From Climacium dendroides (Eukaryota; Streptophyta; Bryopsida; Hypnales; Climaciaceae), in assembly GCA_950106755.1 (NCBI GenBank), contig OX467083.1, forward strand, positions 29,941,029 through 30,005,028: 64,000 nucleotides of DNA, given 5' to 3'. Positions 3,355 to 62,878 of the stretch are shown here, piece by piece; position 1 is the stretch's first letter; each line of letters begins with the position of its first letter. A program made the translations under genes and the position numbers. The notes under the pieces are model-generated. The model did not search any database, was not told the DNA's origin, and saw only the letters and a list, made by a program, of their open reading frames with translations.

Positions 3355-3528
3355 CACTAGTAGAAAATGCAGAAATTTTTGTTGTTTCGGTGACGTTGTT
3401 TTGGTCACCGAACAACAGATTTCTGCTGAAATTAACAGAAATCTGTTAATTTCAGCAGAAATCTGTTGTTTGGTGACCAAAACAACGTAACCAAAACAAC
3501 AGAAATTTCTGCGTTTTTTTTATTAGTG
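3355..3528. mobile_element. CACTA-type MITE, near-perfect palindrome
   Basis: The 174-bp unit begins CACTAGTAGAAAATGCAG and ends with an inverted form closing in TTAGTG. It is flanked by the 3-bp direct repeat TGT (3352-3354 and 3529-3531), which is the target duplication length of CACTA elements. The interior is a long hairpin centred near 3440, with arms reading CAGATTTCTGCTGAAATTAA and its inverse. It has no coding capacity. Confidence 0.8.
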
Positions 3529-8380: not shown

Positions 8381-11300
8381 TCACGAGCCTAGCCAGAGGT
8401 CGTAGATATGGCTGGTGGGATCTTGGTTCGCCCTCTTCAGCCCTTCGAATTGTAAGCGACTGCCGAGAAATTGGTGTCGCAGCATAGGCACATGGCCAAG
8501 CTCGTCCAGGTCTGGGGAAGAGTACAAAGCGCGCAGTCGATCGGCGTGCTTGGAGTCCGTGTGCAGGGCTGCTTCCACTTCGGCTGGGGACAGGGGTTCC
8601 TGTTGAAAACACAGTTCAGGAGAGTGCAAAGACATGTGTTCCGAAGTACGAGAATCTGAATGTAAATTCGCATCTATACTTTGAAGGGAAGACCCCAAAT
8701 GTGTACAATAAGTAGTTCATGGACAAGATGTAAATTCTAATCTACACTTGAAGAAAAGTCGAATGTAGGCAAACAAACATTCAAAGGACCAATCACATTT
8801 AGAAGTTGAACTGCTTTTCTTGAACCCTAAACCCAAATGTGATCAACCAAATCTAAACATTCAACCCTACCAAATGTGATTTTTTTTTAAAAAGTTGGAT
8901 CTAACAGACGTTGGATGCAAGGGCCACACCTACCAAATGTGATCAATAAACATTTGATGGACCAATCACAAGGATAAGAATTTTTAGCACATTTGCAATC
9001 TGTTATGTGAATCCAAACTAAACTTCGCTGGGAAGGGCACGGGCTTGCAGGGTAGGTCGAAGGATGTTTGGAAGGATGCTTGGAAGACCGCAAGCTCACT
9101 TCATGTATTTCCCTGTAGAACATATGATTCGGCATGAACGGGTGGAGATGCTTTATGAGGTGATTTTTAAACAAGACTAAGAAATTCTATGTGAAATCCA
9201 AGATGGAAAGGAAGAGCATTTTGCAATTGAAAGTGCACTCTAATAGGAAGTGTCGAAATGCGAGCATTCCATTCCACAAGAAGTGGCGATTGTCAAGCGT
9301 GAATTGCAACCCCCGGGTGGTATTTCTGAGACGAGATTTCGGGGCTCAGAATTGCGTAGGGTTAAATATGAAATGAAATAGCGATATCACATACTAGAAG
9401 TTGAAAGATCTGATACCCCTAATTCATGTTTCTATGCGAACAGTTTATAACGAGCACATGAGAAGTATGAGTTTAGGGTTAACAAGTGTTGTTGCCGTAC
9501 CTGATAAAATGCGTAGACGAGGTTGATGATCTGCTCCCTGGTGAAGCCGTTTTCGCTGAAGAATGTCTGCGATGAAGGACCCAGCTCGGAGAATCGGTCG
9601 ATGGGGAACACGATGGTCAAGAAGGCACCTCGAAATACAATCTCCCGCTTATCACTGCAACATTTCAATTTGATCACTTTCCTTGACCATAACATTCTTG
9701 AATAATCTAATTAACTCTTGCACCCAACTGCTAATTTAAAGAAGAGCCAGGGTATCCAAGATGCTCCAACTCTCGAACATCTTAATTTATTGCCACAGAT
9801 TTTCTCACATCTTTACTTTCGGAATGAAAGCATTGGCAGTCAGCCAACGATCGAGCCACAACATTCTTGAAAGAGGCTCCTACCACCTCAGAAGCAACTG
9901 CAAAGTTTACCATTCTAAACGTCTTAATCCTTCATTGAATTTTTGTAAATTTCTGCTTAGATCATTGTACAAATACATTCTTTATCCCGCTTTCATCAAA
10001 ATGGTCAGATAGGAAGGTTGTCTTATAAAAGATTCCAATTGGTACTTTAGACGAGAAATTACTTGCACAAAAGATTGGTCAAAAGCACTCTGTTCATCTT
10101 CCAGAATACAGACTTCAAAGCGCTTAGAGGTTGACCCCAAATCCTCTAAACATCTGTTTTTTGGGACACATTTCATCACATCTTAGCATTGGCACTCAAC
10201 TAACCAGCTATCACAGGGAAGCGTGATTACTGCAAATCGAAGAGCAAAAGGGAGGCATGATAGTTATGAAATTCCACATTCTCGCGGCATGATATTCTGA
10301 TGCAAGTTCGAGATGCTTACCTTCGGCTGAGAGGTTTTGTGTAGATCTCTGTTCCGAGGGCTTCGTCCAGAGGGTCCTGAAAGCGAGACCCATTGTGATG
10401 GAGCCCATGGCCAGACTCTGATGCATTGCCATTTCCCACCAAAACCTTTCCTGCGCTGTTGGTGTACAGTTGAGCAGTAGCAGGGGTATCGGACACTACC
10501 CAAAAGATCGAGTCCAAGAGGCTCGTCGGTGTGTTAAGTCGAGGGAGGGTTCTACAGGGCTGCACACATCCACACAGAAAAGAATCCATTTCCTCTCCAT
10601 TTCAACACTGGAAAGAAACCGTAAACCCTAAATTTTGGAGTCACTATGCAGCAATTGAGAACATTTGAAAATTTCAAATGGACACTATTGATACCTAGTG
10701 GCATAAATAGGGCATCTTAACTTGACAAAATTGTGTCACTCTCTTATTGCAGAATTAAGAGCATCTACTATGCAACCTTGGTATATTGGCCGGTAACTAT
10801 ATAACTAACTTTTGAACAGTAAATGATTAGAACTTGAAAATTGCCTCATTGGAAGTGCATCCAAAAGAACTTGGAGAAGGTACAAAAAAATTCAAAAATT
10901 TGACATTGGACAAGTACTTCAAAAGCAAGGTAAACATCTGAAATTATAGAGGTCTTAGCAAATCACGGTTACCAAAGCATGGTTTGGCCATCGACCCTCT
11001 AAATGTGGCCAAATGTGGAGGATCGATGGCCAAATCATGCTTTGGTACCCATGATTTGCTACAACCTCTATAATTTCAGATTTTTACCTTGCTTTTGAAG
11101 TACTTGTCCAATGTCGAATTTTGAATTTTTTTGGTACCTTCTCCAAGTTCTTTCGGATGTACTTCTAATGAGATAATTTGCAAGTTCAAATCACTTACCA
11201 TTCAAAAGATAGTTATATAGGTACTAGCCAATATACCAAGGTTGCACTGTAGATGCTCTAACTACGTTATACAAGTAGAGCAAGATACCTAATTTTTTTA

Positions 11301-14740: not shown

Positions 14741-14935
14741 CAACCCACTTCAATACGCTACAATACGTTGGAATCCACTTGAATCCACTCGATTAACTGG
14801 AATCCGCTGGAATCTGCTGAAGTCTGCTGGAATCCGCTTGCATGTCCTCGAATCTGCCTGAAACTGCTTGAAACTGCTTGAATCCGCTTGAAACTGCTTG
14901 AATGTGCTTGAATCTACTTGAATCTGCTGCTGTGT
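14741..14935. repeat. 10-bp period array (CTTGAATCNG), block 1
   Basis: About twenty degenerate decamers of the form CTTGAATCNG or CTTGAAACTG run head to tail, about 300-490 bp upstream of the BRCT start codon. A single-copy-looking spacer follows (14936-15024: 'tgtcaagatgattatgactc' to 'acgagtcaacta'). Confidence 0.75.
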
Positions 14936-15060
14936 CAAGATGATTATGACTCCCACACACAGCGGAATGCAAAAAAAACAGCACAGGTTGACGAGTCAAC
15001 TACGAAAATGAGCGCAAGCACCCACACACAAGTGTTGCAAATCCACGGCAATCCTCTAGA

Positions 15061-15215
15061 ATTCGCTTGAATCTCTTGAATCCGCTTGCAAGTGCTTGAA
15101 TCCACTGGAACCCGCTTCAAGGTGCTTGAATCCGCTTGAAAGCGCTTGAATCCTCTCTCACTGTGCTTGAATGTGCTTCACTCGGCTTGAATCTGCTTGA
15201 ATCTGCTTGACTGTG
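15061..15215. repeat. 10-bp period array (CTTGAATCNG), block 2
   Basis: This is a second, shorter block of the same decamer. It is again followed by a related spacer (15213-15302: 'tgtcaagatcatgactct' to 'acgagtgaacta'). The two array-plus-spacer modules are therefore a tandem segmental duplication in the upstream region of the BRCT gene. Confidence 0.75.
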
Positions 15216-30348: not shown

Positions 30349-31887
30349 ATGGACCGCCCTCCGATTGCTGATCTCAATGCCTCTCCCCGATGCCTCCAAC
30401 AAGTTTCCAGCATTGCAACTCGACGAGCTGTCACTGCTTGGATGGTGGAGGACGTTGCCATTCACGGTGAGCATGGCCTAAATGTTCGCGTAATTCAAGC
30501 ATTTCTAGAACATTTTCGTGGACAGCGCTCTGCCAACCTTGTAAAAGCCGTCCGATGGTGGCAGCAACGCCACCAATTCGATAAGGACAATGCAGAAAAT
30601 GCAGCCCAAGTCACTGCATTGTCATGCAGCCACAACCGATTGGGCATAAGGCGGCACCATTGTCCAAAAGCCAGACCAGGCCGAGGCAAGAAAAAAAGTG
30701 AATGGGTACAATATTTGTACCCACTTTTACTTGAAGAATTCAACCGCCTTCGAAAATCAAGTGTAAATTTTTCTTCTCTTCTTCTTCGTGAGTTGGCCCT
30801 TTCCATTCTCGTAGCTCCCGAGTCCAATTTCACAGTCCAATCTGTTGACCCAAAGGATAACATTTTGTTGGTTAACAAAATTACCCCGAATTGGGTCAAT
30901 CAATTCATGGAGAACCACAACATAGTCCTCCTCTCCCAACGTGGCCGTTTGACTTGTAGTCCTCAAAAAGAACTCCAAATCGAACAACAAACCGCCTATC
31001 ATTTGGGGTTTTTGCAAAGGGGATTTGCATCCGGGGAATTTGATGAAAATCTAATGGAAAATCTGGATGAAACCCATTTTGTTGTCAATCTTGACAATGG
31101 ACGCACTTTAGGGTTTCGGGGGGACACAACAGTCAAATATGCTGAAGTGGTTTCGGATGGGGAGTCTATGACTATGGTGGTTCGTATTTCAGGAGGCCGG
31201 TGTGCTATGATAGAAGCTCCTATGCTCATTTTCACAAATGAAAATAGGAGCTACCCTATACGAGGTCTAATTGATAATATTCCCGGGGTGTCTTATAGGT
31301 CGGGCTCTAAAGGGTGGATGGACCAAACCATCTTACCCAAATATTTTTTGGAAAATCGGGCATATCAAGCCGATCTTCATCACCGCATGAAGATCATATG
31401 GCTTGATAATTGTACCAGCCATACGGTGACCCCTAGGTTGGCTGATGTCCTAGCAGCCAAAAATATAGTCTTCAAATTTTTACCTCCTTGTTCTACTCAC
31501 CTTTGCCAACCAGCAGATACATTCTTGATTTCAAAGATCAAAGATGCATGGACAAGACGGTGGGAAGCCAAAAAAATTCAGTTGATACAAGAAAATGCTT
31601 GGCAAAATGCACCCCGGGCAGATGGACAATGGTCAGGGAAGTTGACCAATCCAGGGAAACGTTTTTTCCTACAATTGGCTGCTGATAGTATAGAAGATGT
31701 TAATAGAGAGGTGGATTGTGACAACATCTGCTATGCTAGAAAAGTAATGATTCGTTGTGGCTTGGCATTAGGACTTGATGGATCTTGGAGTGTTGGACAA
31801 TTATTTCCACATCTCCAAGACATTATTGCAAAACATTTGCAATACTTTCAAGGGCAAGAAGTGCCTAATTTAAATAGGGCAGTTTAG
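30349..31887 (+). CDS. pogo/Tigger-like DDE transposase
   Basis: This is a 512-aa uninterrupted frame. The enzyme would bind the element's inverted ends and catalyse cut-and-paste transposition into TA sites in the nucleus. Visible parts: a basic helical N-terminal half with a CENP-B-type helix-turn-helix-like stretch (KITPNWVNQFMENHNIVLLS, about aa 177-196), then a DDE_1-type catalytic fold. The proposed acidic triad is D240 (ENLDETHF), D353 (IIWLDNCTSH) and D390 (HLCQPADTF), giving DD36D spacing; KGWMDQTILPKYF (aa 321-333) is the usual GW motif between the first two. Length matches the family (about 450-550 aa). The ATG at 30349 is the first in frame and follows the long leader. All three carboxylates are present and no stop interrupts it, so it may be active. 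Its mobility is inferred, not shown. Confidence 0.88.
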   Translation: MDRPPIADLNASPRCLQQVSSIATRRAVTAWMVEDVAIHGEHGLNVRVIQAFLEHFRGQRSANLVKAVRWWQQRHQFDKDNAENAAQVTALSCSHNRLGIRRHHCPKARPGRGKKKSEWVQYLYPLLLEEFNRLRKSSVNFSSLLLRELALSILVAPESNFTVQSVDPKDNILLVNKITPNWVNQFMENHNIVLLSQRGRLTCSPQKELQIEQQTAYHLGFLQRGFASGEFDENLMENLDETHFVVNLDNGRTLGFRGDTTVKYAEVVSDGESMTMVVRISGGRCAMIEAPMLIFTNENRSYPIRGLIDNIPGVSYRSGSKGWMDQTILPKYFLENRAYQADLHHRMKIIWLDNCTSHTVTPRLADVLAAKNIVFKFLPPCSTHLCQPADTFLISKIKDAWTRRWEAKKIQLIQENAWQNAPRADGQWSGKLTNPGKRFFLQLAADSIEDVNREVDCDNICYARKVMIRCGLALGLDGSWSVGQLFPHLQDIIAKHLQYFQGQEVPNLNRAV

Positions 31888-32019: not shown

Positions 32020-32700
32020 CACCATTGCATTGTTTATTTCACCATTTCATTGTTTTTTTGGGCTCTCTAGCATTTATTTCAGGATTTCATTTAACTTTCC
32101 AACTTTTCAGGATTTCATTGTTTTTTGGGAGCTTTTCAACATTGATTTTTGGATTTCAATGTTTTGTTGGGCTTTTCAACATTGATTTCAGGATTTCATT
32201 GTTTTTTGGGAGCTTTTCAACATTGATTTCTGGATTTCAGTGTTTTGTTGGGCTTTTCAACATTGATTTCAGGATTTCATTGTTTTTTGGGAGCTTTTCA
32301 ACATTGATTTCTGGATTTCATTGTTTTTTTGGGCTTTTCACCATTTATTTTAGGATTTTAGTGTTTTTTGGGGCTTTTCACCATTTATTTCAGGATTTCA
32401 TTGTTTTTTTGGGCTTTTCACCATTTATTTCAAGATTTCATTGTTTTGGGGGGACTTTTCACCATTTCATTGTTTTGGGGGGACTTTTCACCATTTCATT
32501 GTTTTGGGGGGCTTTCAACATTTATTTCAGGATTTCATTGTTTTTTTGGTTATTTCACCATTTCATTGTTGTTTTTTGGGCTTTTGAACATTCCAACATT
32601 TCATTGTTGTTTTTTGGGTTTTTCAACATTCCAACATTTCAGCATTTCAGCAATTCAGCATTTCAGCAATTCAAAATTTCAACATTTCAACATTTCAGCA
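32020..32700 (+). repeat. Minisatellite in the pogo-like element, 81-bp higher-order unit
   Basis: Repeats of about 40 bp ('ggcttttcaacattgatttc' followed by 'aggatttcattgttttttgg') alternate in two variants, giving an 81-bp unit (27 codons), followed by shorter 'tttcaccatttcattgtttt' and finally 'catttcagcaattcag' units. The multiple-of-three period keeps two frames open (31983-32756, 32368-32790), but the phenylalanine-rich products are translation of the repeat, not a gene. It lies between the transposase stop and the right inverted repeat. Confidence 0.85.
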
Positions 32701-33511: not shown

Positions 33512-33791
33512 TACTAGAAGAAAACTACGTTGCCCATGAGTTTAAACTGCATTGGAAACGACGAAACCATGTCATATGGATTTTGTTGAGATCCTTCTTT
33601 CGAACGCTGAAATTTTGCGTTGGAGTGCAGTTTTCAACGTAACATTCCAACGCAAAATGTTATGTTGAAAACTGCACTCTCAACGCAAGTTTTCAGCGTT
33701 CGAAACAAGGATCTCAACAAAATCCATATGACATGGTTCCATCGTTCCCAATGCAGTTTAAACGCATGGGCAACATAGTTTTCTTCTAGTG
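33512..33791. mobile_element. CACTA-type MITE, long palindrome
   Basis: The 280-bp unit ends in TTTTCTTCTAGTG; its left end is the inverse with one change (TACTAGAAGAAAAC, where C is expected first). Flanks are the 3-bp repeat AAT (33509-33511 and 33792-33794). The arms remain similar over nearly the whole length, with the fold centre near 33650 ('caacgtaacattccaacg'). Confidence 0.78.
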
Positions 33792-36446: not shown

Positions 36447-37345
36447 TTAATCCCTAAAGGACTAGCATGCGTTTTTTGGCAGTATAGAAATTTTGGGCAA
36501 GTACATGTGACTAGAGATTTGCATATTTTAGGCTAAAATCTTAATAGAAGGAATATCTTTCATATGCACCAAATTTCATGGCATTTGGAAATATGAGTCA
36601 AAAGTTATGGCCAAATATGTTATTTTTTTCACCATCCGGGCAGTCTGGGCAAATTAGTAAAAATCACATTTTTTGAAAAAAAATATTTGAAATTGATTTT
36701 CTAGAGTTATAAGTATATGGAAAGCTTTGAATCATTCCATTTTGATCAATGAGATGAAAGTTATGAGCAATTTTTGTTTGTGGGCAATTATGGATTCTCT
36801 ACTCTAAAATAAACTTTGAAGTCCTTTATCTTATCCAATTTTTAATATTTTTTGAAAAAAATAAAATCATAGGATGTAGGTTGTTTATTACAACATCTCA
36901 ACCATTGGGATTGGCATTTTTCAATTCCATAACTAAATTCTTAACAATTTTGCATTTTGAATCATTCTCTATTTCTTTCTACTTACTATTTTTTCCTACA
37001 TGTTGCACAATTCTAAATGATGTGAAAATTTTCAAGTATATAGCCAACTTATTTAGGAAAAATAATCCAAAGAAACACCAACATTTTGGACATTTTTTCA
37101 AAGAAAAGTGAGCTTGTGAAGTGAAGCTGCCTTGTTTTTTGTAGGGCCAAAAAATGATTTTAGTGAATTTGAATCATTATATCTTGCAATCCACATGGTG
37201 AATTTTTTTGAAATTTTTACCATGTGTTCTCAAGTCAGCATACTACAAGATCATACGGTTACATGTGTCAAAAAAGTTTTTTTTTCAAAAATTTGGTACT
37301 TGTACTAAAAATGATAGTTTTGGAGCATTTTTGGTGTTATTTCAT
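36447..37345 (+). repeat. Dispersed TTAA-ended repeat (copy, right end truncated)
   Basis: Starts TTAATCCCTAAAGGACTAG and then follows copy 1 (2353-3287) closely: 'catgcgttttttggcag', 'tagggctagaaattt'-like, 'cgggcagtctgggcaaatta'. The match fades near 37345 without a recognisable inverted end. Confidence 0.6.
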
Positions 37346-42747: not shown

Positions 42748-42959
42748 CACTACAAGAAAAAGGGGTGTTTTAAGTATAGTCCTAAAGATAAGATTTTAAG
42801 TAATGACCTTTTTAGGAGATTTTAAGTAAGAAATACGCGTCTTTCTAATAAAATTTTACTAGAAAGATGCGTATTTCTTACTTAAAATCTCCTAAAAAGG
42901 TCATTACTTAAAATCTTATCTCTAGGACTATACTTAAAACATCCCTTTCTCTTGTAGTG
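42748..42959. mobile_element. CACTA-type MITE, palindromic, 3-bp target duplication
   Basis: The 212-bp unit starts CACTACAAGAAAAAGGGGTG and closes with the inverse (TTTCTCTTGTAGTG). CCT flanks it on both sides (42745-42747, 42960-42962). The arms are near-identical to the centre around 42850 ('aaaattttactagaaagatg'). CACTACAAGAAAA is a common plant CACTA terminus. Confidence 0.88.
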
Positions 42960-46288: not shown

Positions 46289-46627
46289 CTACTGGTCCGC
46301 AGGCATGGATCGGATGATATCGGAATCACCAGGGTCGGTGATGCTCAACGTGCAGACACGGAAGTACTTGCCGCACGCGGTGCCCAAGTCCACGTTGTTG
46401 CCGCTGTAGTGGTGCACGCCCGTCTTGGACAGCATGGCGTAGTACTCGATCTCGGACTTGCGGAGGGGCGGGCAGTTGTTGGCGATGATGACGAGCTTGC
46501 CCTTGCCGCCTCGGAGCGACTTCAGGGTGGTCGTGTAGCCGAGGGTGTACTTCCCGGACTTCATGACGAGCGCCAGACGGTTGTTGATGGACTCCTGTGC
46601 CTTCTTCGTCTTCTTGGTGGCCACCAT
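46289..46627 (-). CDS. RPL30: 60S ribosomal protein L30 (eL30), single-exon CDS
   Basis: A structural protein of the large cytosolic ribosomal subunit. The 112-aa frame has the full family length and fold from start to end: [20 protein letters not shown], then [60 protein letters not shown] and [20 protein letters not shown], ending RSMPADQ, so the L7Ae-type RNA-binding core is intact. The ATG sits in a good context (GTCACCATGG) and no downstream alternative is needed. No intron interrupts the coding region. The intact promoter-like telo-boxes upstream argue for a functional gene rather than a dead processed copy, although an intronless coding region is also what a retrocopy would show. Codon use is markedly GC-rich compared with the surrounding AT-rich DNA, as expected for a highly expressed gene. 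Confidence 0.95.
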
Positions 46628-46738
46628 GGTGACGGATTGAGAGGAGCTGTCGACGACGACTAGTGGGGCGGAGCTTAGGCTCGGGGCTGCGAGAGAGACA
46701 GAAAGGGCAGACTATCGCAAGACTGCTGCCATTTGGCC

Positions 46739-49817: not shown

Positions 49818-49828
49818 GCCAAGTTGAC
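49818..49828 (+). repeat. Left 11-bp target site duplication of the MULE
   Basis: GCCAAGTTGAC, identical to 62037-62047. The length is within the 8-11 bp range of Mutator-like elements. Confidence 0.9.
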
Positions 49829-50036
49829 CAATGATGCTAGCATGTGAGCATGTGAGCATGAGCCTAAGAGCAGTGAGTAGGAATTGTGTGAGCCTGAAGA
49901 CTACAAATTTAAATCATGATATAATTTCTAATTTTTTTTAGTTAAAAAATTAAAAAGATTGATTTTTTTAGCAAAGTTTATTTTTAGAAAAATATGACCT
50001 ATTGCCACAGGACCCATGACCGTGGATTTAAAAGCC
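49829..50036 (+). repeat. Left terminal inverted repeat of the MULE
   Basis: Begins CAATGATGCTAGCATGTGAG and has direct subrepeats CATGTGAG. Its outer 45 bp and its inner block (CAGGACCCATGACCGTGG onward) pair with the right end. The middle part is diverged and of different length from the right end. Confidence 0.8.
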
Positions 50037-50375
50037 TAGAAAATTGGCGCTATTGCAAGTTCAAATTTTATATCTAGGTTTATTGGTTTAAATCACGTTT
50101 TCAAAGTCAGTATTAGAGTAGGCTTATAAAGTGAAAGTACAAATAATTAATCCAAAGGAAATTCTAAAATTGACAAAAAGACAAATGCAATGAAAATATC
50201 AAAAAAAATTCTACATCTTACAAATAGTAAAATATCTTTTCATTGCAACAAGGAATACATATTGAAATATAAATATAATACTTTGCAATATATGCAAATT
50301 TTAAAGATAATATGTTGGTACTATAGATTTACTTCATATCATGCTAATACTCATCAACTAACTTGTTCACTAACT

Positions 50376-53300
50376 TCAATTGCACGTCTTGATGATTCCG
50401 GCAGCAACAAATACTTGCTTAACTTCATCCAAACTGAGGGTAGGGGCGTGGATGAATGTGTCTATCTTGTAATCCAATTTGCAGAAGTAACGGAAGATGT
50501 AATAAAGATGTTTGCAGTTTATATACATACCACGCTTTCCAATTGAAGTTCCATTCATACCTCCATAATGGGGACAAATACAAGATGGAAAATTAGAAAG
50601 CGTGATATTATAAACCTTCTGATTAGGTTCAGTACCAGACAAAAGTGTAATAATAGCATCAAGTCCAGGGTAAGGAAGGAAGTTCACCCCAGTGATACTT
50701 GCTGTAACATTCCTTGCACTCTCCCATTGATTGCGGTGATTTTCGGTGGGGGCTTTACTACTCCGACGAACTTGCTTACCATTCCAAATAGAAGGAATTC
50801 TTTCAGCATGTGCCGGTCGAGGATGAGTCCACAATATAGGCTCAAATATCCTTGATGAGGTGAATAGCTGTCGAGGTGACATTGGAATGCTGGATTGCAA
50901 GCGAAATCCAGCTTCTTCAAACTCTATAATTTCGGTACGAGTAAGATTGGTACCAATAAGAACAGGCCAAATCTCAGGGATCTCAGGTCGGGTAAGAACA
51001 TGGGAACGCTTAGGTCCCATGACACATCGTGCAATTTGGTCAGCACAAAACCAAAAATCCTCAATTTGAATTGTTGTCCCCTTATACTCACGCTTTTGCC
51101 CTCTATAAGTAGGGGCAGCAGTGGATAATCCATACCTGACAATCAATAGCTTGCATTTGGCTTGTGTGTACTTCTGAATGGCATGACATTGTTTCCTTGA
51201 CTTGTGTGAAATTCTCGCTATATGCCATTCTGATGTATCACAATCGGTTTCTACAACAGATTGGGTATGGGGTAAAACTGTATTAGTTTCGATAACTACA
51301 GCCCCAAGTTGCACTCTACCAACAGCTAATCTGATTTGAACCTGAGGATGAGAGAAGTTTACTTTGTCAGGGCGATGAGAATCACCTTCAGAACCAATTG
51401 GAAGATCTAATTTCCTTTTGCTAGATCCAAATATTTCTTCACCCTCTAAATCTGGAATTCGAGTGCAAATGTTTTCCGCTCCAAGCATCTCACTAAGTGC
51501 ATCTGCAATTTTTTTTCCATCTCCAGATGCCATAGCCCTCTTCAATTTCAAATCTTCTTTAAAGGGGCCTTTTCTAGAAGGGCCCCCACAAAGATAAGTC
51601 CTATAGTTGGTCATTTGCATGAAGGCTTGAACCCAGTCATCACACATGGCAACGAACAAATCAGATCCACGCTTTCCTGAAGCTTGCATCCATTTATTGT
51701 GCATTGTTTCAGCCAAATTGCATGTTGGAATATCTGCTAATTCTTCTACTGTCAAATTCTGCAAATATATTAAATGAAGTCAGTCTTTGAAATATTGAGG
51801 ATATAGGATAAAAAATAGGAAAAAAACAATGAAAGTAGAGATCATACCGTATCCATGATTGCACCCCATTGACGATAGCGAAAGTGCCAAAATGCCAACC
51901 AATCCTCGAGTTCGCGAATAGCTGGTTCTGATGCAGCTCTAGAAGAATACCACCAAGCTTTGATTTTTAGATACATCTTATCTGCCTCAAACATTGATGT
52001 TGCATCCTTATACTGCCTGCAGAGTCGGATATGTTGTTTCTGAAACTCTTTGCTGATTAGTTTCTCCGTGTGCTTGTGCATGCTTGTCGCCCAATGGAAC
52101 AAACAAGTCCTTTCACGGTCCACCATTGGAATAGATGGGTCCCCCGACCCATACACAGTGCGAACTGCATTAAAGTTGGCTTGAGCACTATCGCACATAA
52201 ATCCCTTGAAGTTAGGATTTGACACTCCATTTTTTATCATGACCTTATTCAAACAACGCCAAAAAATGATTTGGCCTTCAGTGCCCTCAGTCTGCATATC
52301 ACATACAGCAATGGTCATGACTTTGCAATAAGAGGAATCATAAATGTGGCAAGCAATAGTCGTCCATAATTTCACTCTCTTGACATGATCGAACATGATA
52401 AAACAATTTTCAAGGTTGCCGCCTGGTTGCATCTGTCGTACAAGATTCACTCCACTTTCAGGTCCATCCACGAGCATCTTGAATAAATAGACCTTGTCTT
52501 GCCCTTGTCCTGGAAATACACTATCGTGGATATACTCCATTTTGGCATGTCCCTTCATGTCTAGAATTCGATCAATCTCGCCTCCTCCTTTGTTGTTGCT
52601 CCGAAAAGAGGAAATGATGTTGCGCACATTGGGCGAGCTAAGGAGCTTGAACTTATCCATGACATTCTCTAATGCATCACCGTGAAGCATCTCCTTTGGT
52701 CCAAGCCCATCGTGAATAAGAAACGTGTCAAGGAATTCCTTACTTGCCGCCAAGGTGATGGCAGAAGTTTTGGCTGTTGGAGTCTTAGCTACTTCGTTAG
52801 CAATTAGCCCAGTAATTGCTTCAAGAGACTCTCTACATTGACCATCAGTAACTGAATGTGAATGAACACCCAAATGGATGCATGCACGTGACAAATCTCC
52901 ACTTCTAAGTACATAATAAATTCGCGAGTTACATAGACTAAGACAAGTAGGAGGTTGTCTGCAGACTTTATAGAGCACAGTAGAGTCAGGAGGAGGAATC
53001 TGACCTATACTAAAAGGATGTTTGGTGGTTCCAATCCACTCAGTTTCATTGCTTTTCAAAGCTCGTGTGCGATAGTCACATTTTGTATTTTCACAAATCA
53101 AGTGTCCAATACAATGCGATTTCCTGAACTTCAAACCTAAGTCATTATAGATGTTTGATGTCATAGTGCGACACCATGCATGACCATCGTATCGCTTGTC
53201 CATACCTTCCATGCCTCTAGTTCTACATGTAGATCCACGACAAGGTGGCAGCTCGAAAAGAACATCCCCATCAAATCTAGATGGGAGGAACTGAACCTTC

Positions 53301-53989
53301 TGATAGTCAGTGGCATCAAAATCAATTTGGGCAAGTTCATTTCGTGATCCAGGCACTGAAGACAATTTGCGAAGGCATTGTAACACAGTTAAGGAATTGC
53401 CTTGATTGGGAGGAATAGGGGGGCGAGAAAACACGGATGATGTTGGACTACTAAGTGTACTACGGAAGATAGTAGGAATGGATGAATCTACCATACATGG
53501 AAAAACAACCTTCGAAGAAGAAGGTTGACAGACTTTCAGTGGCACCTCGCCTTCAGAATCGCTAGACAACTCAATTACAGGTTCTAGAGACTCGCGTTTG
53601 ATATTGAACACAATTGTATTCTCAGAGCATCCACTACCTAAAGACTCCACTTTTACAGGACATGGTAATGGGTGTTCACCCTTGGAGTTATCAGAAGTAA
53701 GTTTTAATATTTCAGTTGAAGGTGGCAAGAGCTCCGACAAGAGACCATAAACTCTATAGCGCCCTGCAGGAAGAAGCCAGTAGAATCCTTCATGATCACT
53801 ACATCTTGACTGCAAGATAGAGTCCTTAACAATGCCGTGATCTCCTTGGACTTCTTCTTCCACAATAATAGAAGAAGGGGTGAATCCAAACCGGACATGA
53901 AGGAGATGGGCAAGTACACGAACGAAACCTTGATTATCTAGTGGTAAAATACATGGAACATCATGACCTTTAGCAAGAATACTAGCCAT
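50376..53989 (-). CDS. MULE transposase with GCM/WRKY-like zinc region and SWIM finger
   Basis: Two exons, 53989-51848 and 51758-50376, joined in phase 0 (donor GTATGA, acceptor TTTGCAG), giving about 1174 aa. It would cut and paste the surrounding element. Order of parts: a SUMO-interaction-like motif EPVIELSSDSEGE (about aa 136-148); a Cys/His region at about aa 265-380 (GHAWC, SHCIGHLICENTKC, PTCLSLC, ending GVHSHSV) resembling the WRKY/GCM1 zinc-finger group often found on MULE transposases; a DDE-type domain with candidates D534 (FIMFDHVKR), D600 (GFMCDSAQANFNAV), the CLFHW Cys-His pair (about 629-632) and E693 or E695 (RELEDW); and a C-terminal SWIM finger, CIC at 1107-1109 with CKH at 1129-1131. 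No stop or frameshift is seen. The start is the first ATG of the open frame. The exact triad assignment is my inference. Confidence 0.85.
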
Positions 53990-54665
53990 AGTGAAGCATT
54001 AAGAAAATGGGGGGCAAGACGTAGTTTGAAGAAGTAAATAATGAAGTTTGTAAGTGCAAGAGGTGTAAATATAAAGGAGAAAATTATAGGGGTTGTTCGA
54101 AATGAATGAAATTTTTTTCATGGATGTACTGGAATTTGAAATTGGATTGATAATTTGAATGGTCATGAATAAATATTATATGGAGATTTGATATAGAAGA
54201 AGGTATATTAATAGTAGGTGTAATGAAGTTGGGTAAGACGGCGTACTGTATGGCATCAATTAACGCATCACCAATAATAAATGGATTATAGTATGAAGGA
54301 TATCAATATGTATTAGACCAAGTTGACAGTGTTACAACTATCACTGACAATAGAAAATAAGCCGTCAAGCATAATAGTTGATGATGATGTACGACATATT
54401 TACAATTATAATTATATATCTAGTGATAGTCTGACAAGATTAAAAAAATAGTGGTTGATGACAATATGAATAGGAAAAAAAACTAGCCGTTATTTAATCA
54501 TGAAATGAAAATATATCTTTATAAAGAGGAATTAGGGTTGTCTTATAGAATATGGAAGGTTGCAGGACATGAGGAAGTAGTAGATAGAAATGTAAGTTTG
54601 AAAGGGGGTGTGATGTAGTATGACAGATGTTGATATTGTAATGCCTTGATAGTTGATTATTTCAA
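53990..54665. promoter_or_regulatory. Shared divergent promoter region of the MULE genes
   Basis: 676 AT-rich bases separate the two start codons and have no open frame of note, so both genes must start transcription here. I see no clear TATA placement that I would defend. Confidence 0.5.
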
Positions 54666-55765
54666 ATGCAAGAGGATTTGCTTTCACCATCGTTAGTGGT
54701 TGACACTCTAGTTACACACAGGAAGAAGAGGAAGAAAAGTAGATTTCGTTATTCAAGTAGAAGGCAATTGTTAAGGGCTAGAATGATTAGACAGTTGTCT
54801 CGAATTAGTGCAGGTGATTTGTCAAGCTCAATGAGGAATTTAACATATGGAGATATAGTTCCATGTGAAGTAATAGAAGAGGATATTGTAGAGGTTGGGC
54901 GTATTTCTTGTGAAGGTCAACTAGAGATAGCTTCTATCTATAGCGATTGTAATGAACACACTGACGAAGAAGAAAAAGATGAAGTAGATGAAGACACAGA
55001 AGAAGAGGAAGAACATCAACAAAAGCATCAACAATTAGCACTACGAACATTGGAGTTGGAGATAGAACTTGAAGGTACAAACATAGAGGTATGTAAATAA
55101 TTTCTTCAAGCAATGGTAAATTAGAAAGTATGTGAAATTTTGTTTTGAGACACATTTGTAGGAGCTTTATATGATTTTGTGCGTGTCAGAAGCACGATTC
55201 CAACGGTATATAGCACGTAAAAAACGGATGCATATTGAGTGTTTTACGGCTTAAAAACTAAAACAGCATCTTGGAATCTTGCCTGAAATCTTTAGAAACC
55301 GCAGATTTTTAGGCGAAATCCAGCCTTTTGATTTTCAGCAGTTTTTGGCGATTTTTGTAAAATTGCTCGAGTGTCCCAAAATTTTGAAAAAAATTAGGGA
55401 AAATCTGACCCGTAGAATCTATAAGTACAAAAATTTTTGGCTTAAAATCTTGAAAATTGAATAAGTTATTCAAAAGATTCCCTTGAGGTACATCTACCAA
55501 TTTTATACTTGTTTTTTTTTTTTTTTTTGAGACTTGTTTCAACCTAAACCTTGTGGTTTCGGCGCACATTGTCTTTCAACTTTTGAAGGTATTAGAGGAA
55601 GAAGAAGCTTTCCCCATGGACGAAGGAGAGGCTATAGAGGAGGCTACGGCGGAATCATTGCGACGATTTGAGCGTGGAGAAACGATGATTCAAGAAAAAG
55701 AGGGGACAGCAAGTGCGCCGAGTGAGTCAAATCCAGGTGCGTGCCTCATTTTTTTCCGCCTCTCC

Positions 55766-56890
55766 AAACCCCAGCCGTTGACGGCTACACTTTTTCCAAT
55801 TCTATTTTGTTTTCAAAATTGCTTGGAATTGCCTTCATGTTTGTCTCTCCAATGGACAGCCATTGATGCTCATGCTTTTCTGAATTCCACTTTAGCGTTT
55901 AGGGTGCTACAATTTCGTAGAGCCCTACAATTTTTTGAGCCTTCTTAAACCCCAGCCGTTAACGGCTCCGCTTTTCTGAACTGTAATTTAGGAATTAGGA
56001 TGCTACGATTTTGTAGAGTACTATAATTTTTTGAGCCTTCTTAAACCCCAGCCGTTAACGGCTACGCTTTTCTGAACTCAAATTTAGGAATTAGGGTGTT
56101 CCAATTTTGTAGAGCACTACAATTTCTTGAGCCTTCTTACACCCTAGCCGTTGATGGCTATAGTTTTGAGATACACATTTGCTTCTACGAAACATTAGGA
56201 ATTTAGGCAAATGCTGAAATTCTTGGCTTCTATAGAACATTAAGGATTTCATTAGATGCTGAAATCTTTGTGACTTTAGACCCCAGCCGTTAACGGCCAT
56301 GCTTCCAGAGACATAAATTTCATGTCTATATATGCTACATTGATCAATACTTGCCGAATTGGCAAATTCTGAAAATTTTCAGGACTTCATAGACCCCAGC
56401 CGTTGACGGCCATGCTTTTAGTGACTTCAATTTTTTTCCCAATGTATGTTATCTATTTCAACAATTGCCAAATGTTGAAATTTTTCAGGACTTCATAGAC
56501 CCTAGCCGTTGACGGCCATGGTTTTAGAGACTTTTATTCTTTTCCCAATGTATGCTACATTACTCAACATTTGTCAAATGCTGAAATTTTTCAAGACTTC
56601 ATAGACCTTAGCCGTTGACAGCCATGCTTTTAGAAACTTCTATTTTTTTCCCAATGTATGCTACATTGCTCAACAATAGCCAATTTCTGAAATTTTTCAG
56701 AACTTGATAGACCCTAGCCGTTGACGGCCATGCTTTTAGAGACTTCTATTTTTTTCCCCAATGTATGCTACATTGCTCAACAGTAGCCAATTTCTGAAAT
56801 TTTTCAGGGCTTAATAGACCCCAGCCGTTGATGGCCATGCTTTTCGAGACTTTGATTTTCTTCCCAATGTATGTTACATTACTTATTTTA
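55766..56890 (+). repeat. Minisatellite with palindromic AGCCGTTNACGGC core in intron 2
   Basis: About ten units of 95-140 bp each carry 'accc(c/t)agccgttgacggc', in three units as the perfect 12-bp palindrome GCCGTTAACGGC. Later units also share 'cccaatgtatgctacattgctcaaca' and a 'ctgaaatttttcaggacttc' tail. The whole array lies in the 1.3-kb intron of the ParB-methyltransferase gene. AACGG words are known MYB/MSA-type cores in plants. Confidence 0.85.
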
Positions 56891-57025
56891 TGCTGAAATT
56901 TTTAGGCCTCCTTAGACCACATTCATTAATGATTTCTATACAAAATGGTATATATTATTGTACATACATGTAGACTAAAACTTGTTCTAATCATCATGTG
57001 CACATTGTTCTTGACATGTTGACAG

Positions 57026-57969
57026 AAAGAGATCCACAAGCACAAGAAGCTGATGCCGCACTTCAACCTCTTTCTCAAGATGAACTTGAGTTACAGTTGC
57101 ATGGATTCTTGAAGAAAGAGACTGTGAATACTTCTTCTCGTCTTGAGCGGTTGAGGTATCAACAACGAGCTCAATCAAAAATCAATATTCCTTTATGTCG
57201 TATGATATTTCTACCGGTGGTGAGGCCTTTCTTGAAGAATGATGTCATGAATTTAGCTGCACACTTTGTTACTTGTGGTTACATGGAAGGAAATGGAGTT
57301 TTCTATGTTGCCTTGGAGAACAATGAGGGGAAGACAATAGATGTTACGGATGAAATCATCAAAACATGGAGTCCAAACTGGGTGAGAGCAAATGCTGCAT
57401 TTGAGAGAGAATTGCAAAATGATGAGGATCTCAAAGTTTTTTCTGGCAAGATGTTTATGGGATGGGATGGCAACCATCGTTTACAAGCATGGATGCATCT
57501 TATCAACCGAGATCATGCAGACGACTTTCAATGGCATTATGCTGTTGAAAGTATCATTTTGGAGGTCAAAGGGGATGTTGCAACTATGCTGACAGCATTA
57601 CATGAAGTCAATTGGTAAACCATTATATTTCTTGATCCCTTTTTATTTTATTCATTTCTTTTGTTTTCCAAGTTTGTTTCACTTGAATCATTATCTATAC
57701 TGCTATTTTGCATTCTTTTATTTCAAAGTTTTTTTTATATGTTCTAATATAATAAATTTTATTTTGGTAGTAGAAATCAGAAGTCCCATGTCTCCATAAA
57801 TCTTGTTCACAAGCTCTATCGCATTCAAAATATTGCCGGATAGCCACTCTCGTATTTTGAAAAATTTGTTTCTAAGGAGGATCTTCTTGCAGCTAAAGCC
57901 AAGCAAAAATCGAAACAGAGAACTTGGTTCACTTTAACTCTTGAGGCTCTAAATGGAGTCTTATACCAG
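57026..57969 (+). other. ParB-like domain region (exons 3 and 4)
   Basis: The encoded order is the one expected of ParB/Srx N-terminal domains: an arginine-led strand (CRMIFLPVVRPF), a helix with LAAHFVTCGYM (compare 'LAesIkenG'), a long insert, then the box-II-like GWDGNHRLQAW, a VESIILEV strand, and ALHEVNCRNQKSHVSINLVH (compare 'aLiENlqRkdLspie'). The conserved GNHR stands where GERR or GHHR is usual. The stop at 57841 falls right at the end of this domain. Confidence 0.7.
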
Positions 57970-59705
57970 GTTCATTTCTTCATTTTTTTTTCTAGTTTTC
58001 AAATTTCTTTGAATGTTTAGGTTTCTTGACATTAACTTTTTTTTTAATTGCATTTCATATTTCTTCCTCTACTATTCAAAACATTTGTTATCATTTGCAT
58101 TTATGTTTATTCTTACATATTCTTCACTTTTTGCAGCAAGAATTGGGGAATGCTGCTGTTGCTGCTCAAAGAAAATTCTATGAGAAGTATCCCAATCCAG
58201 TGGATTGAACTTCAAGTGCAGTTTCCGAGTGGGTTTCAAAAGCTGTTGACAAGGTCAAGGTAACTTCTCATTCAGAATTGAAGAAGCAACTTCCCATTGC
58301 AGATCCAAAGCATACGAGCGCATTTTTGGAACAGATAAAGTTTCACTATGAAACTCATGATGACAATCCGGAGATGACCCAAGAAAAACTTTGGATGTTG
58401 GCAACTTCAGCGATGGATACTTCTATGAAGATCAAGTGGCTTGAGAGATGGAATAAATCTCCTTCTCTTCGTGAGGCTCTCAAATTCCCTAAACCGAAAT
58501 TCAGTGATCTCGAATTTCCTGAGTGGCTTCATAAAGCTACGTGGTGGGCTCAAGTGAGTACTTATCTTTCTTTCCTATTGTTTTAGTATTAATTCCTTGA
58601 ACCTTTTGGATCAATCAAAAATTCAAAACATTTTTTCTAATTTACAATTTATGTACATGGCAGTTGGCTATTGAGACAGAAAAACTCTTCAATGCTACAG
58701 TGGCAGATTTGGACGTATCTATTGACTATCTTCCCGATGGTATGGATCCCTTGCCTACTATTTTTGATTATGTAGAGACTATGTGCATATTGTTGTGGGA
58801 TACTGCATTCTTCCGTGAATTTGCTGTCGATAAGGGGGTTCACAAGAACAATAAGATAGACAAGCAACTCAACTTCAAATCAGCCATGCAAAGGGTGCTT
58901 TATAGATACTTTAAGTATGTTCTCTTCCCTACCAAAGCCATTTCCAAAACTCCCACTTTCTTTACCAATTATTTGGACAAAGAAAGTGAAGAGTGCATGT
59001 TCACAGAGGGGATCATGGAATCTTGGGATCCCATGCATTGGGAAAAATGTAGGTGGTATTTGGATTGTCCCCTCAAAAGACCACCAACTTTTGATGTTGT
59101 CCTCCGAGATTCTATTGAGCCTGCTCTCAAGGGTACAGCTATAGATGTTCTCAAGAAGGTCAGTAAGGATGCAGCCAAGAAGACCAAGAAGACCAAGTCT
59201 AAGAAGTTGGTAGTTGAACTTGATGATTCCAATGAAGATGTACCAGTTCAAGATACTTTGAAGAATCTTGTTGTTACTATACCTTCTTCTTCCGATGTTG
59301 AAGCAAAACTCCCTGCTTCAAAGCACCAGAAGACATCTTCTACTTCCGTTGTTTTGGTACCAACCTCCTCTCCTACCTTTGAGCTAGCTCCCAAGCTTAA
59401 AGGTATGATGAGTACATTGACTCCTTTGTCTACCAATCCTACATCTCTTGATCTAATCTTGAATGATTCTTTTGTTAGAATCGTTGAAGAGAAGAAGAAA
59501 AATGGTACATTTGGTACATCATATGACAACATTATGGCTTTTCTCTCAAAGGTCAGTTCATTTTTTTTATTTGTTTTCTTTTCATCTCATTTTTATTATT
59601 ATGAAATCATACATATTCTACCCAATTTACATCTTCTCATTTTGTTCTTTTATGACTTTGACATCTTCTGTTATGAATTAACATTTTTGAAATTTATCTT
59701 TGTAG

Positions 59706-60754
59706 GTCGGTGAAGGTAGAGAGTTCTTTTTTGATGGCAAAATTCAAAAGAGACCAGCTGTAGACCTCATCATTGCAGAGTATCCAGATGGTCTTCCAGT
59801 TCCAGGGGTTTCAAATCCATCATTTGAAATCCCTCATTGGAATGCTAGCATTCCAAGTTTTCTCCATGTAATGATGGCATTCTCTTTCACCTATCTTCAT
59901 GATGATGGAGCATTTCTTTTATTTTATCCTGATACTTCTACGGTGAAGAGCGAAGTGTCCGGATTCTTCAAGAACTACAAGTTGAAGATCAAAGATGAGT
60001 GGACTATTATAAATTGCTTACATTTGGCAAATCCCATGAACCCATCCAAATTTGTAAGTAGTAATTTCAATCTTTTACTTTTTATTTTGATTCACTTGTT
60101 ATTGCAGTTATTTTCATTTTAAGTGCACATTCTAATTTGATTTTGATTTTGATTTGCAGACTTTGAAGTTCAAGGCTTTGCTATTGATTCGATCATTTGC
60201 CTCTGCCATTGCTAGGCAACCTCGAGAGCTTCAAATTTCTATTGATCCCTCAATTCCTGATGTTGATTTAACCACAAATGATGTCCTTTTCAACACTATT
60301 TCGACAACAACTCAATCATGTAGAAAGGAAGATGGCAAGCCATGGAGGGGTGCTAAGGAAAAATCTGAGGTTCTCATGAAGCTTTTTGTTCATGGCTTAA
60401 GCCCTACAAATGGTATTGTGGCAGACATGACTGCCTCTACAGGTATTGTAATTTACAACATTGAATCATTATTGTTGTATATTCTGATTTGATTTTTTTC
60501 TCTACCTTCCAATTTTGATGTTCTTATAATGTCAATATTGTGTCTTATACAGGTTCTTCCATCAGAGCAGCTCATTCATCTAATCGTCATATTCTAGCAT
60601 TAGAAAGTGATGCCAAGCTTTTTGATGAGGTACTGAAGCCATTACAAACACCTACTATCATCTCCAAGACTCTTCATTCTACTACCACGGGTGATGGTAT
60701 GGAGATTGATGACGACTCTCCAATTGAAGATGTCGAGTTACTTGACTTATGTGA
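59706..60754 (+). other. Beta-class DNA methyltransferase-like domain region (exons 7-9)
   Basis: A permuted order is visible: motif IV region first (AVDLIIAEYPDGLP), a helix and GAFLLFYPDT strand like 'l.pgGhllvf', then the lysine-led helix before motif I, TASTG in the motif I loop, an RAA helix and the ALESD acidic strand end. The catalytic DPPY or equivalent appears as EYPD and the FxGxG loop as TASTG, so catalysis and S-adenosylmethionine binding are in doubt. Confidence 0.65.
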
Positions 60755-61912
60755 GTAAGTTTTTTTTTTGTTTTTTTTTCAACAATTGCAATTCAAAATT
60801 CAATACTTTGAATTTTAATTTGTTATTACATACTCAAACATATGGTTTGTTGTTTGCAGTTGGATGAGTCCATCACCAAGACAGACCTTGTCTTTTTTCC
60901 GACACTCTGGATTTTTTAGAAGTCCTTCTCTGAGTCCTCGTGGCCTACCTATTTATGCTGAAGATTTAGCATTAGCTTATGCTAATGTTTCATCTTATTC
61001 GTCTTCGATCTCTCTATCACCTCATAGATCTTATGATCCTAGAGTATGTTCTTATTTTGAACTCCGTGCATCTGAGTCAGACGATATTTGAGTTTGATTT
61101 TATACTTTTATATTTGATTTCTATTTACTTTATTCTATTTTGAATCTAACTATGCATGATGTGGCAACAATTCCATTTGATGGCCTTAAACTTCACTCTC
61201 TGCTCAAATTGAATAATAAATTGCAAGCCTTGAATTACACTACACCATTGGACTTTATAAAATTCTACATAATTCACTTTAATTTGGAATTAAATTAAAC
61301 TATTAGCATTGGATTTGTTTCAAAAAAAAGTTTGATTAAGATAGTCCAAAAATAGAGGCATTGACTAGAAAAATAATTGCTTAATTCATTCTAGGTTAAT
61401 ACATATACCTAGTATAATAAATGAATATTTTGTACATTTAAAATATTCAAAATTCAAGATTTTCTATTTTTATTTTAAATCATTTAAAAAAAATAAAAAT
61501 AAATAAATGGACCATTTTCATTCTTTAAATTTACATGAAGGCCAACAATTAAGACTTCATTTATCACTTAATCATAAACTCAAGACCATTTTTATGATCT
61601 AATGCTTGTAATATTTTGCCTATCATCAAATTTATATTCAACATCTACAATCCATGTTTATTGCCCCTTCTATTTTTACTTGATAAATGTACCCTTTAAA
61701 TAATGGTATTACAATGCATTGTATTTATCTCATATATGTCTTGTAGTGAAATATCCTAAACCGCTATATAGACCTATTTTCATTATGTGTTACTTACAAA
61801 AATTTCCTATTTTATAATATTTCAATTTAATAAAATATATTGGTTCAATTTTGGGGGGACAAAATCAAATAGGAACAAATTCATTTGTTGTTTATTTGGA
61901 CTATAGATCCTT

Positions 61913-62036
61913 GCATTTAAATCCACGGTCATAGGACCTGAACAGATTTATGAATCCTAAATGGATAAAAAAATGGAGGCTTATAGGCTCACAGGCTCAT
62001 AGGCTCACGCTCACAAGCTCACAAACTAGCATCCCC
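61913..62036 (-). repeat. Right terminal inverted repeat of the MULE
   Basis: Read inward from the right it starts GGGGATGCTAGTTTGTGAGC, followed by repeated GTGAGC/ATGAGCC words, then a short unique stretch and the inner block ending at TATGACCGTGGATTTAAA. Confidence 0.8.
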
Positions 62037-62047
62037 GCCAAGTTGAC
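62037..62047 (+). repeat. Right 11-bp target site duplication of the MULE
   Basis: GCCAAGTTGAC, identical to 49818-49828. It directly abuts the TTAA that starts the next dispersed repeat. Confidence 0.9.
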
Positions 62048-62785
62048 TTAACTCCTAAAGGTCCAAACACTATTTTTTGGCATTATAGCAATTTTGGATA
62101 GTTCACTATAAATGAAATTTTTATTTCTCTTTTTTGAAAATTTCACACAACATGTGCCCAAGGAGTAGCTTTAAGGCGCAACAATTTTCATAACTTTTGA
62201 CTACACAATGAAAAAGTTATTGCATAATATGTAATTTTCAACATTTTGTGGGCAGCTTGGGTAGCCCAAAAAACTTCTTTAAAAATCACTTTTTTAAGAA
62301 ATAAAAATTTGAAATTGGTTCTTTAGACTTATATATACGTAAAAAGCTTTGAATCATTCCATTTTGATTAATGAGATGAAAGTTATGAGGAGTTTCAATT
62401 TGTAGGTAGGTATGGTGTCTAGAGATTCCGTCTAGAGATTTCATCATGTAGCCAACTTGCCTTGAAGAATTAATCCAAGGAAGCACTATCATTTTGGACA
62501 TTTTTTCATACAAATATGACCTTGTAAAGTGCAGCTAGCCTATTTTTTGCAAGGCTAAAAAGGATTTCTGTCAATTTAAACGCTAATATCTTGCAATCCA
62601 TATAGTGGAAATTTCTAAAAAATATTCCACATTTTTTTGAACCATCTTATTACAAGAGCCCACTGCAAGAACCTATGGTTATATATTTTTCAAGATCTTT
62701 TTTTCTATAATTTGGCACTTGTACTAGAAATGATAATTTTGGAGTGCTTTTGGTGAAAACATAGTTAAGGAACTTTAGGGGTTAA
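62048..62785 (+). repeat. Dispersed TTAA-ended repeat, both ends present
   Basis: The left end is TTAACTCCTAAAGGTCC and the right end is GGAACTTTAGGGGTTAA, a clear inverted pair of 17 bp including TTAA at both extremes. The interior matches copy 1. At 0.74 kb it is shorter than the other complete copies. Confidence 0.7.
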
Positions 62786-62878
62786 CAATACTCAATGATA
62801 TTCTTAATAATTGTGCAAATAAGTATTCTCTCTAATTATGAATAATACCAATATTTCCTTTGTGAAGCACAAAGAAAA

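Follow-up and report, generated by a model that had tools for sequence, protein, structure and literature searches.

Two groups of transposons provide the closest described parallels to the element reported here. In the first, an accessory gene that pairs a ParB-like part with a DNA methyltransferase accompanies the transposase; genes of this class are already in print for Sola1-1_Ec32 of Ectocarpus and for green and red algal transposons (PMC12477816, the available text of which cites Iyer 2011 and Petroll 2025 for such genes). The second group comprises the VANDAL elements of Arabidopsis, whose VANC proteins are the comparison system for anti-silencing (PMC5735166; PMC10398659). As described in the available part of the VANC21 paper, the short motif to which VANC21 binds has built up through the formation of tandem repeats; these target arrays are found in introns of two genes, VANC21 and VANB21, and also upstream of VANA21 (PMC5735166). 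Here we describe a 12,208 bp transposon at positions 49829..62036 of a 64-kb stretch of the Climacium dendroides genome (contig OX467083.1; this whole stretch is called the window). The element holds a transposase gene and, divergent from it, a multi-exon accessory gene for a protein that may combine a ParB-like segment with a methyltransferase-like domain; ten palindromes are arrayed in one of the introns of the accessory gene. The explanation that we favour, with a probability of roughly 0.4, is that this is a degenerate copy of an autonomous Mutator-type family, the second gene of which would encode a DNA-binding protein that targets its own element, counters silencing and is probably no longer catalytic.

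The anatomy of the element is certain: it is one element, with ends, a target duplication and two divergent genes. The exact 11-bp duplication GCCAAGTTGAC occurs at only two sites in a search of the plus strand of the window, directly to the left (49818..49828) and directly to the right (62037..62047) of the transposon. The terminal inverted repeats are short and imperfect, with agreement at 30 of their 34 first bases; the left one (49833..49866, plus strand) contains GTGAGC repeats and pairs with the right one (62000..62033, minus strand). A 25-base end pattern, GATGCTAGNNTGTGAGCNTGTGAGC, has a single match at each end, the two in opposite orientations, and none in 100 shuffles; it has no further match in the window when up to three mismatches are allowed. 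Further in, the two arms of a subterminal inverted repeat (50008..50035, plus; 61913..61940, minus) are 89% identical, and the right end also carries a short tandem array of the 16-bp unit AGGCTCATAGGCTCAC (61977-62023). The initial annotation, made from the letters of the window, had proposed a single element between these limits, holding a transposase and a divergent gene. Both proposals are borne out, the first by the exact duplication and the opposite-orientation end matches, the second by the two-exon minus-strand frames and the multi-exon plus-strand chain described below. A second copy of the element was not found in the window, and a plasmid search with its left end gave no match. Could the two genes instead belong to two unrelated elements, one inserted in the other, with no common function? 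The region is repeat-rich, as such nesting would have it, but in the 25 longest of the 48 inverted pairs we recognised no inner ends that would enclose just one of the genes, and the outer duplication and ends are the sole coherent pair seen in that set. Nesting therefore appears very improbable.

To which superfamily does the element belong? The transposase consists of two long open frames on the minus strand, separated by an 89-bp GT-AG intron, with exon ends read by eye. Exon 1 (51848..53989) encodes the catalytic region, with conserved FDHVKRV, CDMQ, FMxDSA and CxxH, and towards the end of exon 2 (50376..51758) lies a zinc pattern of the SWIM type, CxC-x19-CxH. The spliced model (53989-51848 joined to 51758-50376) has 1,174 residues. 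When exon 1 was used as the query of a protein search, in which the 7999 candidates sharing most words were scored, we obtained 65 relatives with E-values from 0 to 6e-24. The transposases of Mutator-like elements (MULEs) have DD(E) residues with a CxxH between the second and the third, and a zinc finger that is frequently of the SWIM type (CxCxnCxH). In our family, counting at each column only the members that cover it, the conserved positions are D534 (39 of 41), D600 (30 of 31), C629 (28 of 28) and H632 (28 of 29), and the third acidic residue is not settled. MULE target duplications range from 8 to 11 bp in the available text of a published account (PMC6446971), and the 11-bp duplication falls inside this range. 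MULE is the best label for the element because the duplication length, the inverted ends and the zinc pattern fit; the anatomy thus agrees with the MULE transposase of the initial annotation, but the profile does not support it. At E≤1 no member of the 66 has a match to the Pfam MULE profile PF10551; 16 of them cover most of the catalytic region. For the window member Pfam gives DDE_Tnp_1 at E=0.43; for its catalytic segment the best Mutator-family match is Transposase_mut (PF00872) at E=0.049, with DDE_Tnp_1 at E=0.12. The catalytic segments of six relatives have no Mutator-family match (Smr alone appears, twice), and the zinc pattern of exon 2 has no match to the Pfam SWIM family.

On the plus strand, up to ten exons joined across GT-AG introns (54666-61091) would encode 1,242 residues, with splicing as predicted from the sequence. 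The possible first exon (54666..55088), basic and then acidic, is uncertain and is covered by none of the four relatives listed below. The next (55589..55736) is probably coding and would supply an acidic N-terminus, to which that of P0002 is comparable when read by eye. The exon with the ParB-like segment (57026..57614) is followed by two exons (57771..57969 and 58137..58553) with in-frame stops, TAG at 57841 and TGA at 58206, so that the copy in the window cannot make the whole protein. These stops, like the ten intronic palindromes, were absent from the initial annotation. After an exon of unknown fold that can be aligned with P0003 and P0004 and has no Pfam match (58664..59551), the methyltransferase-like domain is encoded by an exon with the motif IV region (59706..60053), an exon at the end of which motif I begins (60160..60442) and an exon that completes the domain (60553..60754). 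The last exon (60860..61091) encodes a serine-rich tail and the stop.

Four relatives of this protein, mostly fragments, were found with a shorter two-domain query and 5669 candidates scored: P0001 (E=1e-58), P0002 (4e-52), P0003 (3e-32) and P0004 (1e-18). The whole product as query gave no relative at E≤0.001 among 8000 candidates scored. In alignments read by eye, P0001 ends, and P0003 ends or carries an insert, at splice points of the window gene, and P0004 passes through those points without inserts. The gene model is supported because the breaks in P0001 and P0003 coincide with the splice points, and an accidental chain of frames was rejected in view of the four relatives and the common splice points. 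P0002, on a contig of 1479 bp, has the ParB-like start joined straight to the middle of the methyltransferase-like part and looks like an internally deleted copy. Searches of viral contigs (with the plus-strand protein and queries A3 and A4) and of genome contigs (A3 and A4) gave pattern matches and no relative by tblastn, and sequence and profile searches of PDB gave no meaningful match.

These relatives bear on whether the accessory gene is an ordinary host or foreign locus, picked up once in the manner of a Pack-MULE and without a role in transposition. MULEs often carry pieces of host genes, according to the text available (PMC6446971), and the copy in the window is broken. Moreover, the longest contigs of the four accessory relatives (2781, 1479, 16407 and 2512 bp) have lengths that do not recur among those listed for the 65 transposase relatives, so that no contig common to both was seen, a test that is weak because short contigs cannot hold both genes. 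However, what the element carries is an entire gene of several exons, including its introns and an array of motifs, placed divergent from the transposase, and just four fragmentary relatives, one of them (P0002) like an internal deletion, were found in a search of limited sensitivity. We regard such a capture as conceivable but unlikely.

What kind of protein would the gene encode? The exon at 57026-57614 holds WDGNHRLQAW, and DGNHRLQAW is kept in P0001. The DGNHR motif (57466-57480) presumably stands where a ParB box, of the DG(N/E)(H/R)R type and following a beta-alpha-beta start, would be expected. The ParB label is therefore assigned only from a motif, DGNHR, and from the order of the segments; a relation to ParB is plausible, and the ParB fold is a prediction from these features. 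A match of P0004 to the PHROG "ParB-like partition protein" (E=0.48) lies in a charged linker and was taken as chance. The ParB part had no match by tblastn against phages.

The product likely ends in a relative of the beta-class N4/N6 methyltransferases. It matches PHROG 3008, "DNA methyltransferase", at E=8e-5 and PADLOC MTase_II at E=0.0039; Pfam N6_N4_Mtase is reached at E=0.02 with the whole product and at E=0.0018 with the segment, where the score of 18.7 bits is below the cut-off of 26.7. A comparison by hhalign with two bacterial/phage methyltransferases gave P=0.0011, for an alignment of 43 columns that surround motif I. By tblastn, the methyltransferase part gave weak matches only: three phage records (E=7), two of which match in one phage methyltransferase gene, and five plasmid records (E 4-7), in two of which the match falls on an annotated methyltransferase and in a third on a gene named rmsM. 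When the segment is aligned with two methyltransferases, L001 and L003, VDLIIAEYPDGL is paired with IHLILSDIPYGI and IDSIVTDPPYGL, and GIVADMTASTGSS with QIVLDPFSGSGTT; motif IV and then motif I align in the order of the beta class.

The motifs themselves are altered. Motif IV is covered by three of the five known members (P0001 and P0002 do not cover it), and in all three the catalytic [DNS]PP[YFW] is replaced: by EYPD in the window and in P0003 and by DVPE in P0004. In five-letter form, where DPPYG is usual, these read EYPDG (59778-59792 in the window), EYPDG and DVPEG, with D, D and E at the catalytic aromatic position. Motif I, usually DPFxGxG, reads DMTASTG in the window (from 60424-60442 into the next exon) and DLSASTG; the usual F and first G are absent in both members that cover it. 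These changes appear old and kept, because the window segment shares just 50% identity with P0003 and 35% with P0004. Methyl transfer has probably been lost, catalysis by this protein is unlikely, and DNA methylation is doubtful because the catalytic motif is replaced in all three covering members.

The same motif can be read the other way. In an active self-methylating element, the ParB-like domain would bind the element's own DNA, and N4-methylcytosine or N6-methyladenine would be deposited through an unusual catalytic motif. Self-methylation has been suggested for the algal transposon proteins, and the domain pair, the size and the opposite strand agree with Sola1-1_Ec32 as far as the accessible description goes (PMC12477816). 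The plus-strand product is related to DNA methyltransferases, and the [DE]xP[DE]G motif is itself conserved and may therefore do something. Set against this are the replacement of the motif IV aromatic in three of three members and of two motif I positions in two of two, and we consider active self-methylation distinctly unlikely.

The second feature of interest in the accessory gene lies outside its exons. Ten palindromes, GCCGTTRACGGC, occupy 55774..56835, inside the intron at 55737-57025. All ten are within two mismatches of GCCGTTAACGGC and start at 55774, 55955, 56051, 56147, 56286, 56399, 56505, 56611, 56717 and 56824; elsewhere in the window there is no copy within two mismatches, and GCCGTTRACGGC with one mismatch does not occur in 100 shuffles. 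The palindromes span 1.06 kb and form a 96-bp array (n=3) and a 106-bp array (n=5), plus two extra copies. Is the palindrome more conserved than the units that carry it? We compared four units (the 96-bp array and the copy at 55774) with six (the 106-bp array and the copy at 56286), so that all ten were used. Between the arrays, identity is 91.7% (0.917) in the 12-bp core versus 47.1% (0.471) in the rest of the aligned unit; over all pairs it is 0.915 in the core versus 0.581 outside. The best 12-column window (94.4%) starts six columns before the core, and the kept block is therefore about ACCCYAGCCGTTRACGGC. The palindrome cores make up 120 of the 1,289 bp of the intron (9%) and contain 17 of its 27 CpGs. 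The observed/expected ratio of CpG is 0.30 in the intron outside the cores and 0.48 in the window, and the first CpG is intact in all ten palindromes.

What might bind these palindromes? As sites for the transposase they were rejected, since none lies near the element ends within two mismatches. They could be docking sites for the protein of the same gene. One such role would be that of a transposition helper, in which the second gene, like mudrB, acts in targeting, synapsis or ParB-type nicking, with the palindromes serving as its sites. A ParB-type domain can act as a nickase, and the ParB-methylase of Bacillus cereus nicks DNA (PMC5512222, in the text available); in the maize element, integration apparently requires the second gene (PMC6446971, likewise). 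However, the palindromes are intronic and away from the ends, where other repeats lie, and a helper role of this kind seems distinctly doubtful.

In the reading that we favour, a degenerate copy of a family with an anti-silencing second gene, it is tempting to hypothesize the following. The second gene would encode a sequence-specific DNA-binding protein, with the ParB-like segment followed by the methyltransferase-fold domain. The protein made by intact copies would bind the GCCGTTRACGGC palindromes in the array that its own gene carries in an intron and would load or spread there; the noncoding DNA of the element would in this way be kept open or unmethylated, and both genes would be expressed. 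Overall, this would be a VANC-like anti-silencing device built from ParB and methyltransferase parts. Binding of the palindromes and an anti-silencing effect are predicted by analogy, and self-targeting to the array is a hypothesis with circumstantial support. A more specific version seems unlikely as it stands: that a ParB-methyltransferase of prokaryotic type was turned into a noncatalytic sequence reader, which loads at parS-like palindromes in its own gene, spreads and excludes silencing, in convergence with VANC. The initial annotation had suggested a transposon-borne modifier of DNA marks or silencing; with the catalytic motif replaced, its methylation half has become doubtful, and its anti-silencing half is the one that we favour.

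Several observations weigh against this explanation. The element is known from a single copy, and that copy is broken. Searches of Pfam, PHROGs, NCBIfam, PADLOC and PDB gave no ParB profile match. On the methyltransferase side, the probability that hhalign itself assigns is only 20%. None of the four relatives has a methyltransferase profile in Pfam or PHROGs (motif I is reached in P0004 alone, whose sequence breaks off at that point), and NCBIfam gives an unrelated family at E=0.11 for the window segment, and no methyltransferase. An altered motif is no proof of lost catalysis. In the comparison of palindrome units, anchoring on the motif favours the core; the second CpG is intact in seven of the ten palindromes and lost in three, and a tandem repeat in the intron of a transposon gene could be inert. 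The ParB-methyltransferase fusion of the initial annotation is accordingly supported in one half only. Profile searches for the two domains returned the PHROG match and the sub-cut-off Pfam match, which give moderate support to the methyltransferase relation, but nothing for ParB.

The sequence to the right of the transposon is a dispersed repeat (62048-62800), which starts directly after the 11-bp duplication and copies of which begin with TTAACNCCTAAAG. Copies start alike at 2353, 33924 and 39273 (minus strand), and a partial copy lies at 36548. The first three of these share their starting base, TTAAC, with the copy that follows the duplication, and therefore the window holds no empty site. 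The dispersed repeat may be a TTAA-targeting element, or it may reflect a target preference. The left flank has no second copy in the window at E≤1e-5 when the joined flanks are compared with it. Elsewhere in the window, a frame of 512 amino acids at 30349-31884 (plus strand) matches the DDE_1 transposase family (Pfam, E=3e-12); we take it to be of the pogo/Tigger type, and directly after it come tandem arrays whose unit measures about 40 bp (32033-32641). An intronless frame for ribosomal protein eL30 (46292-46711, minus strand; Pfam Ribosomal_L7Ae, E=5e-26) appears plant-like and is a gene or a retrocopy. Foldback-type inverted repeats, 88-95% identical and with little or no spacer, lie at 10758-11259 (251-bp arms), 42748-42959 (106-bp arms), 33513-33790 (110-bp arms) and 3364-3517 (76-bp arms). 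Arrays of a 10-bp, GAATCTGCTT-like unit are found in a GC-richer stretch at 14800-14928 and 15050-15210. No Rfam family and no tRNA was found in the window.

If our favoured explanation is true, a ParB-methyltransferase-like accessory gene would be placed in Mutator-type elements of a plant-like genome, beyond the published algal cases, and motif arrays would seem to give elements of this type a second, independent means of marking their own DNA. In the more specific version, ParB-style loading, which evolved for DNA partition, would serve the anti-silencing of a plant transposon. Binding could be tested directly on the palindrome, and the altered catalytic motif would allow one to ask directly if such proteins modify DNA or only read it.

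How does the locus compare with the systems already described? Its closest counterpart in gene content is Sola1-1_Ec32. According to the available description, both are large DNA transposons in which the second gene lies on the strand opposite the transposase and encodes about 1.1-1.2 thousand residues, with a ParB-like part and an N4/N6-type methyltransferase part. Compared by description only, the two differ in the transposase (Mutator-like here, Sola1 there) and in the replaced catalytic motif and intronic palindromes found here (PMC12477816). The initial annotation knew of no such partner gene in a plant MULE. Among the papers listed in our literature searches, which covered few of the subscription journals, we saw no other report of a transposon with such a gene and no case from either a MULE or a land plant; within that scope this part of the claim holds, but the gene class as such is in print for algal transposons. 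Bacterial and phage ParB-methylases such as Bce_0392 of Bacillus cereus likewise pair a ParB domain with an adenine methylase, as the accessible text describes (PMC5512222), but the window protein has no significant sequence match in phages or plasmids. TET/JBP dioxygenase genes on fungal DNA transposons are similar in that a transposon carries the gene of a DNA-mark enzyme; in the text available, enzyme, host and transposon groups are all different (PMC12730594).

The analogy with VANC, already drawn in the initial annotation, is strengthened by the motif array in the intron of the accessory gene. VANC carries a DUF1985 domain, and Pfam at E≤5 gives the plus-strand product no VANC-type family. 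The motif of VANC21, YAGTATTAY, lacks the palindromic form, and the function of VANC21 has been tested, whereas the window protein is known from its sequence alone (PMC5735166, as far as its available text goes). What the two systems share, in the same accounts, is a Mutator-type element with an accessory gene and tandem arrays of a short motif in noncoding parts that include an intron of that gene. The parallel in layout with the VANC21 arrays is thus close, between proteins that appear unrelated as far as Pfam shows.

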